Below are positions 8,710 through 32,378 of a stretch of 40,517 nucleotides of DNA, in pieces. The notes under the pieces are model-generated. The model saw only the letters and a list, made by a program, of their open reading frames with translations, ran no database searches and was not told where the DNA came from. Source of the stretch: Candidatus Woesearchaeota archaeon CG10_big_fil_rev_8_21_14_0_10_44_13 (GTDB taxonomy: Archaea; Nanobdellota; Nanobdellia; Woesearchaeales; UBA12501); assembly GCA_002762985.1 (NCBI GenBank), contig PCXZ01000011.1, positions 1 through 40,517 of the forward strand. The letters are read 5' to 3'. The translations under genes and the position numbers were made by a program. Each line of letters starts with the position of its first letter. Positions within the stretch are counted from its first letter, which is position 1.

Positions 8710-8769
8710 AAAATCCCGACTCACGAACTCGTCTGGGATTTTCAGACTTGCAAAAGTTCTTTCGCAAGT
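8710..8769. repeat. Dispersed palindromic repeat (AAAATCCC...GGGATTTT)
   Basis: AAAATCCC (8710-8717) pairs with GGGATTTT (8735-8742). This 33-bp unit is repeated in reverse orientation at 29137-29169 with only about three mismatches, all in the centre. A second small hairpin, ACTTGC (8746-8751) with GCAAGT (8764-8769), follows directly. The family is therefore dispersed in the genome, with another degenerate copy at about 29187-29277. Confidence 0.7.
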
Positions 8770-28924: not shown

Positions 28925-29024
28925 GCCCCTGTAGCTTAGCAGGTGGAGCGCGCGACTGTTATCCGACGGTTTGTATCGCCAGAAAGACATCGCGAGGTCG
29001 GCAGTTCAAGTCTGCCCAGGGGCG
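28925..29024 (+). tRNA. tRNA-Asn(GTT) with 27-nt intron
   Basis: GCCCCTG pairs with CAGGGGC, with discriminator G at 29024. The D arm is GCTTAGCAGGTGGAGC, the anticodon stem CGCGA/TCGCG with loop CTGTTA|A giving GTT, and the T arm GGCAG-TTCAAGT-CTGCC. The 27 nt at 28962-28988, inserted after position 37, must be spliced out, leaving 73 nt. CCA is not encoded. Confidence 0.92.
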
Positions 29025-29035
29025 TTTATTTTAAT

Positions 29036-29124
29036 GGCTCCGTAGCTTAGCCTGGCTGGAGCATACGACTGATAAGAAATTTTCAGATATCGTAAGGTCC
29101 CGAGTTCGAATCTCGGCGGAGCCA
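29036..29124 (+). tRNA. tRNA-Ile(GAT) with 14-nt intron
   Basis: GGCTCCG pairs with CGGAGCC, with discriminator A at 29124. The anticodon stem TACGA/TCGTA encloses CTGATA|A, anticodon GAT, and the T arm is CCGAG-TTCGAAT-CTCGG. A 14-nt intron (29075-29088) follows position 37, leaving 75 nt. It is 11 nt behind tRNA-Asn, so the two are probably one transcript. CCA is not encoded. Confidence 0.92.
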
Positions 29125-29136
29125 TTAAACAAAGGC

Positions 29137-29277
29137 AAAATCCCAGACGAGCTTGCGAGTCGGGATTTTGTCTTTTTTAATGCTCAATAATCCCAGACGC
29201 TTGCCGAGCTTGTCGAGGCAAGTCTGAAAATCTCGACTTTAGTCGGGATTTTCTATAAGCTTGCGAGTCGGGATTAT
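29137..29277. repeat. Two palindromic repeats between tRNA-Ile and the truncated helicase
   Basis: The 33 bp at 29137-29169 (AAAATCCC...GGGATTTT) are the reverse-orientation copy of the repeat at 8710-8742, about 30 of 33 bases identical. A larger composite follows at about 29187-29277: it opens AATAATCCCAGAC and closes GTCGGGATTATT, with inner arms CTTGCC/GGCAAG and GAAAATCTCGACT/AGTCGGGATTTTC. The repeats fill the space where the first half of the helicase gene would be. Confidence 0.7.
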
Positions 29278-29310
29278 TTTCGCATTCATATTCATTTCTT
29301 AAAACCAAAA

Positions 29311-30915
29311 ATGCCACACCAAAAAATCCTCGAAATCAGGCAGCAGACAGACAATGACACAGTGAATCTAGCCCTGGACACTATCAGCATTGGCAAGCAG
29401 GCCCTTGTTTTCGTGAACACAAAGCGCGGCGCAGAGAAGGCTGCAGAGGATATCGCTTCTAAGATCAAATTTGATGAGAACAATCCGATACTAAGGAAAC
29501 GGAAGCAGGAATGGGAGCAGACTGCTGATGAGATCATAAAGGTCCTGCCAAGGCCTACAAAACAATGCGAAAGGCTGGGGAAATGCATAAGGAAAGGCAT
29601 CGCATTCCATCATGCAGGACTGGCCCAGAAGCAGAAGACGATAATCGAGGATGCGTTCAGGCAGAACATCCTCCCGATAATATGCTGCACACCCACTTTG
29701 GCCGCAGGTATGGACCTTCCGGCTTTCAGGGTGATACTGAGGGACCTTAAGAGATACGGCCTGCATGGGCTTAACTGGATCCCTGTGCTTGAATATGAGC
29801 AGATGGCAGGAAGATGCGGAAGGCCCAAGTATGACAAGTACGGGGAAGCGATCGCAGTAGCAACAACAGAGAATGAGAAAAAGAATATAACGGATGTTTA
29901 CATCAATGGGGAGGTTGAAGAGATCTACTCGAAGCTCGCAGTCGAGCCCGTCCTGAGGACCTATATCCTTTCCCTGATCGCATCTGAATTCGTAGGCAGC
30001 GAAGAAAGCCTGTTTGCGTTCTTTGAGAAGACCTTCTGGGCCCACCAGTTCAAGGACATGAAGAAGCTCGAGAAGATCATAAGGAAGATGATAAAGCTGC
30101 TTGAGGATTTCGGGTTCATAAAGACCGAAAAGACAAGGGACGAGTTCGTATCAGCAGACAAGCTTAAGGGGGGAAGACTGGAGGCGACTATCGTCGGCAA
30201 GAGGGTTGCGCAGCTCTACATCGACCCATTGACAGCCAACGGCATAATAACTGCATTGAAAAAGGCAGAATCGAAGTCTGCCACTGATTTCTCTTTCCTA
30301 CAGCTCGCATCTAGCTGCCTTGAGATGAGGCCCTTGCTTAGGATAAAGGCTGCAGAATACGAGGATGTGAATGGGAAGCTGAACGAGCATCAGTCGGATA
30401 TCCTCATCCCCGAGCCTTCGATGTATGACCCTGATTACGAGCATTTCCTCCACTCGATAAAGACGGCCATGTTCCTTGAGGACTGGTGCGATGAGAAGGA
30501 TGAAGAGGAATTGCTGGAGAAATATTCGATCAGGCCCGGCGAGATAAGGGTCAAGCTTGAGCTTGCGGACTGGCTTCTCTATTCGACTGAGGAGCTGGCA
30601 AGGATGATGAAAAAGCACGCGATAATAAAAGATATAATCAAGGTCAGGCTGAGGCTGAAGTACGGCGTCAAAGAAGAGCTTATCACATTATTGAAGCTTG
30701 AAGGCATAGGAAGGGTAAGGGCAAGGAAGCTGTACAATAACAGGATAAAGGACCTGGGGGATGTGAAGAACGCAGACATAATGGTGCTTGTCCAGATCGT
30801 CGGGAAAAACACTGCGCTCAGCATAAAGAAGCAGGTGGGCCAGGATATTGAGAAAGAAAAGATACCTGAAGGGAAGAGGAAGGGGCAGATAAGTCTGAAG
30901 GATTATCAAATCTGA
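29311..30915 (+). CDS. Hel308-type helicase lacking the first RecA domain
   Basis: The 534 residues begin exactly where RecA domain 2 of Hel308 begins. Present are motif IV (ALVFVNTKRGAEK, 31-43), FHHAGL (99-104), motif V (TPTLAAGMDLP, 127-137), motif VI (QMAGRCGRP, 164-172), the winged-helix and ratchet region, and a C-terminal helix-hairpin-helix (LLKLEGIGRVRARKLY). Missing are about 200 N-terminal residues with the Q motif, Walker A and the DExH box, so this protein cannot hydrolyse ATP alone. The rest is undisrupted and well conserved. Either the other half is encoded elsewhere (a split gene) or this is a recent truncation. Two tRNAs and repeats stand directly upstream. Confidence 0.85.
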   Translation: MPHQKILEIRQQTDNDTVNLALDTISIGKQALVFVNTKRGAEKAAEDIASKIKFDENNPILRKRKQEWEQTADEIIKVLPRPTKQCERLGKCIRKGIAFHHAGLAQKQKTIIEDAFRQNILPIICCTPTLAAGMDLPAFRVILRDLKRYGLHGLNWIPVLEYEQMAGRCGRPKYDKYGEAIAVATTENEKKNITDVYINGEVEEIYSKLAVEPVLRTYILSLIASEFVGSEESLFAFFEKTFWAHQFKDMKKLEKIIRKMIKLLEDFGFIKTEKTRDEFVSADKLKGGRLEATIVGKRVAQLYIDPLTANGIITALKKAESKSATDFSFLQLASSCLEMRPLLRIKAAEYEDVNGKLNEHQSDILIPEPSMYDPDYEHFLHSIKTAMFLEDWCDEKDEEELLEKYSIRPGEIRVKLELADWLLYSTEELARMMKKHAIIKDIIKVRLRLKYGVKEELITLLKLEGIGRVRARKLYNNRIKDLGDVKNADIMVLVQIVGKNTALSIKKQVGQDIEKEKIPEGKRKGQISLKDYQI

Positions 30916-30955: not shown

Positions 30956-32218
30956 TTATCTTAAATTATTCATATGCTCTGATCTCCTGAATGGCTGGAC
31001 TGCAAATTTGCTTATCTTGGCCATGTCAAGAATTCCGTTCGTAGTGTATGATTCCCCAATAGGTATCTCTTCTTCGAGGCATCTTATGACCTCGCCGAAA
31101 AAATGCGCTGTCCTTATCACAGATGTCACCTTCTTAAGATAATAAGTCATATTCCGTTCTATTGATGGATGGGAATTGGTATATATCACTTCGCTTGGTT
31201 CAGCTGCAGCTATTGTCTGCATTGCACTCTCAAAATTAAGGCCGGCATGTACTGCATGGGTGCCGTAGATCACTATGTTTGCGGGCCTTTGCCTGCCAAA
31301 TCCCTCAATCTCTATGCCATCTTCCTTTATCGTCACGCATGTAGCCTTCCTTGTTCCGGCAGTATCATCCATGTCATCTATAGTCAAGGCTGTTTTTCCT
31401 TCCAACCCTGTGTAGTTTGGGGAAACCTGCGGATTGTATATCTCCACCTTGTTCGGATCATTTGCAACTTTCCTTGTCTTGCTGAACTGTATCTTGCTTA
31501 TGCCTGTGTAGCCCAACCTATGCAGGCTGTCGTAAAGATAGTCGCCTATTGGTTTTGCGCCTAAATCCGAGAGTAAAAGGACTATGTTTGAGCCATTGTT
31601 CTTATTCAGGCCCACATTTGAGTAATGAGTTAAGTAATGGATAAGGAGAGGGACAGGACTAAGATCCATCAATACATCCCCTCTTCCATAGATCTTGCCG
31701 TATGATTCTTGGACATGTCCGCTATGCAGATGAAGTGTCAGAACGCGGTCTATCCCATTGGACATGAATGCTTTTGCCTGTGCCCTTGCAAGATTGCCTT
31801 TGCCCTTGAAAAGCTTCTTCTTCTCATCGTCAGATTTCTCGCTAAAATCTTCCGGCCCTTTGTCAGCCCTGCTGAAGTAGAGGTCTGTGGCCACCAAGGT
31901 CACATGCGCTGCGCCCCATTCCTTTGCTGCGTTTGCAGCGAATTCGGCCCTTGACTTCATCTCGCCGGGCGAGACATTATTCAGTATATTGGCAGGATCC
32001 GTAGGCACAGCGAACAGAAAGACATGCTTCCCTTTGAGGTCGCATAAGACTTCTGGGTTGAATTCGCCGCCGCTGAAATCGCCGGGATGTATTGTCTGAC
32101 TGACATCAGGCATATTGATCCCATATCTCGTCCTAAGATATTCTGCACTCTTCCTGGCAATCTTCATCGAATCCTCTGCTTTTGTCAAAGAACTTATTAT
32201 TATATCTTTAAGTGCCAT
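30956..32218 (-). CDS. prs: Ribose-phosphate pyrophosphokinase (PRPP synthase) family protein
   Basis: The start at 32218 follows a TATA box (32254-32264) by a proper distance; an open frame running further upstream covers that box. The 420 residues include FSRADKG (where others have YARQDK), VLTLHLHSGHVQESYG (others VDLHA), VLLLSDLGAK, the KTR catalytic arm (FSKTRKVAND) and the PRPP loop TIDDMDDTAGT, then TNSHPS. PRPP synthases are normally about 280-320 aa; the extra length lies in the N-terminal part and in insertions such as DKGPEDFSEKSDDEKKKLFKGKG. It should supply PRPP for nucleotide, histidine or tryptophan synthesis. Confidence 0.82.
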   Translation of the reverse strand: MALKDIIISSLTKAEDSMKIARKSAEYLRTRYGINMPDVSQTIHPGDFSGGEFNPEVLCDLKGKHVFLFAVPTDPANILNNVSPGEMKSRAEFAANAAKEWGAAHVTLVATDLYFSRADKGPEDFSEKSDDEKKKLFKGKGNLARAQAKAFMSNGIDRVLTLHLHSGHVQESYGKIYGRGDVLMDLSPVPLLIHYLTHYSNVGLNKNNGSNIVLLLSDLGAKPIGDYLYDSLHRLGYTGISKIQFSKTRKVANDPNKVEIYNPQVSPNYTGLEGKTALTIDDMDDTAGTRKATCVTIKEDGIEIEGFGRQRPANIVIYGTHAVHAGLNFESAMQTIAAAEPSEVIYTNSHPSIERNMTYYLKKVTSVIRTAHFFGEVIRCLEEEIPIGESYTTNGILDMAKISKFAVQPFRRSEHMNNLR

Positions 32219-32378
32219 TTTTCCCCAAAAATCAACCTTCAAAACCAAGAAATCATATATAAATCTTTCCATTTTTAGCACTTGGGAGTGCGGAACAAGG
32301 TGAGGCATTTAGTAAAACAGATAGAAGGATGATATTATCAATGAAAAAATAATAAAAAAAAGAAAAATAAAAAGAAGT

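Follow-up and report, generated by a model that had tools for sequence, protein, structure and literature searches.

Two separate genes encode the halves of a Hel308 helicase in a Woesearchaeota-like order

The Hel308 C-half in the window and a free RecA1 gene in the same genome

We analysed a 40,517-nt stretch of DNA (the window; contig PCXZ01000011.1) from Candidatus Woesearchaeota archaeon CG10_big_fil_rev_8_21_14_0_10_44_13, in which an open reading frame (ORF) of 534 amino acids (aa) encodes the C-terminal part of the helicase Hel308 (the C-half). The original prediction had spanned 29137-30915; its end stands, and its start does not, since it takes in an upstream hairpin repeat, the gene itself beginning with an ATG at 29311. 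The frame had also been read as starting at the boundary of the second RecA lobe (RecA2) without a Walker A or DExH box, and this was borne out: a Pfam scan found no DEAD domain in 29311-30915, and the frame aligned with residues 229-710 of P. furiosus Hjm (2zj2; 3.6e-86), a stretch that opens at the RecA2 boundary and reaches the C-terminal end. Pfam matches to Helicase_C, HTH_61 and Helicase_dom4_arc support the predicted motifs IV-VI and ratchet; the predicted helix-hairpin-helix (HhH) scored slightly under the HHH_5 cut-off, which was exceeded in the C-halves of two relatives (L115 and L117). The C-half alone missed the whole-protein equivalog cut-offs of NCBIfam (475 of 887 bits for NF002654, 306 of 1200 for NF040935), as a partial protein would. 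The gene and its parts are as follows.

29311..30915, plus strand: Hel308 C-half gene (RecA2, winged helix, ratchet domain and HhH), 534 aa plus stop; ORF, Pfam, NCBIfam and 2zj2 alignment
29353..29862, plus strand: RecA2 lobe with motifs IV, V and VI; Helicase_C match
29800-29826, plus strand: motif VI, QMAGRCGRP; by sequence, present in 48/48 C-halves
29863..30123, plus strand: winged-helix domain (HTH_61); Pfam
30292..30666, plus strand: ratchet domain (Helicase_dom4_arc); Pfam, 104 bits, cut-off 27
30685..30831, plus strand: C-terminal HhH (HHH_5); Pfam, 26.5 bits, slightly below the cut-off of 27
30886..30906, plus strand: C-terminal QISLKDY, PIP-box-like; by sequence, Q526 in 41/48 C-halves

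The genome to which the window belongs (G000) comprises 1.515 Mb in 36 contigs and is 98.5% complete. The original prediction had called for a search of it for a free RecA1 domain of about 200 aa, and a DEAD-domain search revealed a 220-aa ORF on a separate contig, contig 5 (the N-half; G000:C5:5958-6620, plus strand, equal to L002:1426-2088). It carries an intact Walker A motif (PTASGKT), DEVH and SAT, matches the DEAD domain with 115 bits and aligns with residues 15-214 of 2zj2 (4e-65); its own stop codon lies 118 bp before the end of the 6.7-kb contig. Placed together on 2zj2, the two halves do not overlap and leave a gap of 14 residues, which is the inter-lobe linker. A complete Hel308 elsewhere in the genome, the observation named beforehand as telling against a split gene, was looked for and not found: searches with both halves and with the DEAD domain yielded no other Hel308, no second C-half and no fused form in G000, the remaining DEAD-box matches being proteins of 528 and 970 aa and some weaker hits. 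These results support a split Hel308, with its larger half encoded in the window and its RecA1 lobe on another contig. The pair is a split form of Hel308 and not an ordinary member of the family, as it consists of two genes of 220 and 534 aa instead of one polypeptide of about 700 aa.

Distribution, split position and conservation across the order

The halves were traced in 353 genomes of the window's order and in a phylum sample of 108 order genomes and 49 class members from other orders. Across the order, the N-half was found in 311/353 genomes and the C-half in 312/353; in genomes at least 90% complete the counts were 173/180 and 166/180, respectively. In the phylum sample, 100 of the 108 genomes from the order had both halves, five the N-half only, two the C-half only and one neither, which is close to the expectation from gaps in metagenome-assembled genomes (MAGs). 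Among the matches listed or inspected order-wide, the halves always occupied separate frames and none was fused; among those listed, N-half frames were short and never ran into the C-half. Of the 49 genomes from other orders, 35 lacked Hel308 at the search threshold, and in 14/14 that had it the protein was fused in one frame of 687-747 aa (that of G174 is cut by a contig end). The named records matched by the C-half were Candidatus Woesearchaeota or Nanoarchaeota MAGs. The split is a fixed, order-wide trait of this Woesearchaeota-like order. Two near-complete genomes (G060 and G101) yielded only the C-half.

Frames long enough to suggest fusion were considered as fused genes and rejected. The long C-half frames (769 aa in G049, 749 aa in G360, 795 aa in G379, and those of G036, G048, G016, G096, G130 and G108) owe their length to extra C-terminal sequence, to frames running past the match or to inteins in motif V, and contain no RecA1; the 429-aa N-half frame of G327 is merely an open frame running upstream. 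The extension in G049 (L035:1489-3774) bears a Methyltransf_30 domain, and that in G360 (L162) comprises about 190 aa of unknown sequence.

The ends of both halves are tightly placed. In 57 genomes the N-half stopped a median of 2 residues past the final strand of RecA1; in 48 genomes the median distance from the C-half start to the first block of RecA2 (KQA) was 26 residues. Halves on the same contig mostly lie tens to hundreds of kb apart, the closest pair seen being that of G141 (about 3.3 kb, opposite strands). In the one-contig genomes G019 and G121, where the distances are about 37 kb and about 143 kb, the same split ends occur in contig interiors.

The helicase motifs are retained on both sides of the split. 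Walker A (PT[AG]SGKT) was present in 54/57 N-halves, with DExH and SAT in 57/57 each, and both HHxGL and motif VI were found in 48/48 C-halves. C-half identity across the order was about 50-64%, some 80 columns were invariant in a set of 33 sequences, and the N-half was equally conserved. Motif V of six split C-halves (L114-L119; from the six genomes G036 to G108 named above) is the site of inteins: three contain full inteins with Pfam Intein_splicing and LAGLIDADG matches, and in the other three the frame is interrupted at the same place. Inteins with LAGLIDADG insert at conserved sites of functional importance and have to be spliced out, and their position in motif V therefore fits a working active site. 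The view that the undisrupted 534-codon frame is still in use thus gained ground.

A cysteine just before Walker A (Cys46 of the N-half, L002) was present in 57/57 split N-halves, in contrast to 1/14 fused proteins, in which the position is mostly Ser or Ala. An intersubunit cysteine pair of C46 (N-half) and C86 (C-half) was considered and dropped, as C86 is conserved in fused proteins too. At the other end of the C-half, a PIP-box-like tail (Q-x-x-L-x-x-[YF]) is common; it may be a possible tether to PCNA, PCNA binding itself being a guess.

A proposed two-subunit motor and its alternatives

In SF2 helicases such as Hel308, structures place the ATP site between the RecA lobes. With the two sides of that site on separate proteins, assembly must precede activity. 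We consider the pair to be, with high probability, an obligate two-subunit Hel308 that arose by one gene fission, its physical assembly, activity and cellular role being what we infer from the above. A single break, no later than the common ancestor of the order, would have cut the gene at the flexible linker between the RecA lobes, and the pieces are now unlinked. After translation the two proteins would associate non-covalently as a heterodimer, the N-half supplying Walker A, DExH and SAT and the C-half motifs IV-VI, the winged helix, the ratchet helix and the HhH, so that the ATP site would be completed only when RecA1 docks on RecA2. Once assembled, the complex would behave like any other 3'-5' Hel308, at the stalled forks and D-loops where Hel308 is known to function; the helicase is non-essential in most archaea tested (PMC7776575). 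Single-chain structure models are consistent with two proteins: the N-half was modelled as a lone RecA1 lobe (pLDDT 89.8, pTM 0.86; best PDB match Hjm), and the C-half as well-predicted domains in an uncertain arrangement (pLDDT 84.9, pTM 0.58).

Some observations weigh against an obligate pair from a single fission. In G015, G100, G113, G120 and G129 (96-100% nominal completeness) the N-half was present and a profile search did not find the C-half; a gap is the simple reading of such genomes, and the N-half may also have a role of its own. For these genomes and for G060 and G101 alike, assembly gaps are probably the cause. Comparison of the relatives' loci showed no operon and no shared neighbourhood linking the halves; the N-half often lies near an ftsY-like gene (assigned by eye), and the C-half has no constant neighbour. 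A tree of 25 pairs and 14 fused proteins recovered the split as one change (SH-aLRT 95), and a 35-pair tree, whose extra ten pairs are mostly divergent, leaves G165 unresolved beside the fused proteins of G071 and G174. For the larger set, an AU test did not reject a grouping of all split forms (p-AU 0.32). One ancient fission is the simplest reading, compatible with the trees but not proven, and two fissions are possible.

A variant of the two-subunit motor, which we hold to be rather unlikely, makes it a switch: the C-half would sit on DNA as an idle clamp, and the motor would start only when the separately expressed RecA1 half docks. The clamp would perhaps be held by PCNA through the PIP-like tail, giving a conditional two-part motor in this order.

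A more thorough parting of functions, in which the C-half binds DNA independently of ATP, perhaps while attached to PCNA, and the N-half works as an ATPase in its own right, would agree with the unlinked genes and with the near-complete genomes in which one half only was found. We judge it improbable: motif VI in 48/48 C-halves and a recognisable motif V mainly serve ATP hydrolysis together with RecA1, the inteins sit in motif V, and both halves occur together in 100/108 genomes. Still less probable is a rejoining of the halves in the cell, by protein trans-splicing with a split intein or by RNA trans-splicing. It has a precedent in Nanoarchaeum, whose PolB is rejoined by a split intein, and full inteins do occur elsewhere in some C-halves; yet each half has its own start and stop codons, the N-half stops 0-8 residues past the RecA1 strand in 55/57 cases and the C-half starts just before RecA2, and these tight ends leave no room for intein pieces.

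There is scarcely any chance that the frame is a decaying pseudogene, the relic of a recent loss of the 5' third, as its lack of Walker A and DExH taken alone might suggest, for the RecA1-less frame is conserved order-wide at the level given above, and the RecA1 domain that it lacks is encoded elsewhere with equal conservation. That a normal gene was cut during assembly, by a misjoin ahead of 29311 or at the end of a contig, is just as improbable: the N-half does end close to a contig end, but its stop codon comes first and the same two ends recur in the relatives' contig interiors, including one-contig G019 and G121. The fresh truncation that the original prediction had offered as an alternative, and the assembly join it had cautioned against, are both excluded because relatives carry the same split ends, at the same residues across the order of 353 genomes and with the C-half start behind unrelated upstream DNA. 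The split gene that it had offered as the other possibility is supported by the complementary RecA1 gene in the same genome and by the order-wide split.

If the two-subunit Hel308 holds, the RecA lobes need no covalent link in what is a model monomeric translocase, homologous to human HELQ and to the helicase domain of POLQ. It would make a natural system in which to study how the lobes dock and the ATP site is put together, and the gene fission would serve as a clean marker of an archaeal order. The C-half would be labelled a truncated helicase by gene callers, and the presence of the repair helicase may go unnoticed.

Flanking features and comparison with known systems

Upstream of the C-half lie two tRNA genes and palindromic repeats, as had been predicted. 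Rfam gave the tRNA positions, and ARAGORN with introns allowed gave their identity and introns, both of which are anticodon-loop introns.

28925..29024, plus strand: tRNA-Asn(gtt) with a 27-nt intron, upstream neighbour outside the helicase; Rfam, ARAGORN
29036..29124, plus strand: tRNA-Ile(gat) with a 14-nt intron, upstream neighbour outside the helicase; Rfam, ARAGORN
29139..29167, no strand assigned: hairpin repeat dispersed through the genome in 11 copies and unconnected with the split; genome search

The palindromic repeats are at 29139-29167 and about 29189-29275. The first, AATCCCAGACGAGCTTGCGAGTCGGGATT, recurs at 8712-8740 of the window and at 9 further places in G000; being one of 11 near-identical dispersed copies, it is not a feature of the helicase gene. 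Two copies show paired changes on both arms (AATTCC/GGAATT and AATGCC/GGCATT), which indicates that the stem is kept. Downstream, a PRPP synthetase-like gene (by eye from the sequence; 30956-32308, minus strand) adjoins the C-half convergently, as it also does at L157_17 of G121, a member of the order distant from this one.

In the open literature searched, most subscription papers and preprints lying outside the coverage, we found no description of a split Hel308; the helicase itself is known, and it is the two-gene form that we did not find described. Many relatives also have a one-piece paralogue of about 640-660 aa, labelled Eta from its length and its match to 7ujb only; a search with the C-half found no paralogue of this size in the window's genome. 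The Eta/Ski2-like helicases (about 640-660 aa) belong to the same superfamily, and 7ujb is the best non-Hel308 PDB match of the N-half, but they share about 30% identity and are encoded by one gene. Once combined, the halves align end to end with Hel308/Hjm (PDB 2zj2, 2p6r and 2va8) and have all of its domains and SF2 motifs; unlike Hel308/Hjm, they come from two unlinked genes, the break falls between the RecA lobes, and the ATP site is divided over two polypeptides.

Nanoarchaeum and other DPANN lineages are known to have split genes (PMC6349945), and split pheT and Dph2 are lineage marks in Altiarchaeales (PMC4975002). As is characteristic of archaeal split protein-coding genes, the halves of Hel308 are complementary and non-overlapping, and the fused form occurs in related lineages (14/14). 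Like the split genes of Nanoarchaeum and Altiarchaeales, they are encoded separately, have a fixed split site and mark a lineage; unlike in those, it is a DNA-repair motor that is cut here, in the middle of its ATPase core and across a 353-genome order.
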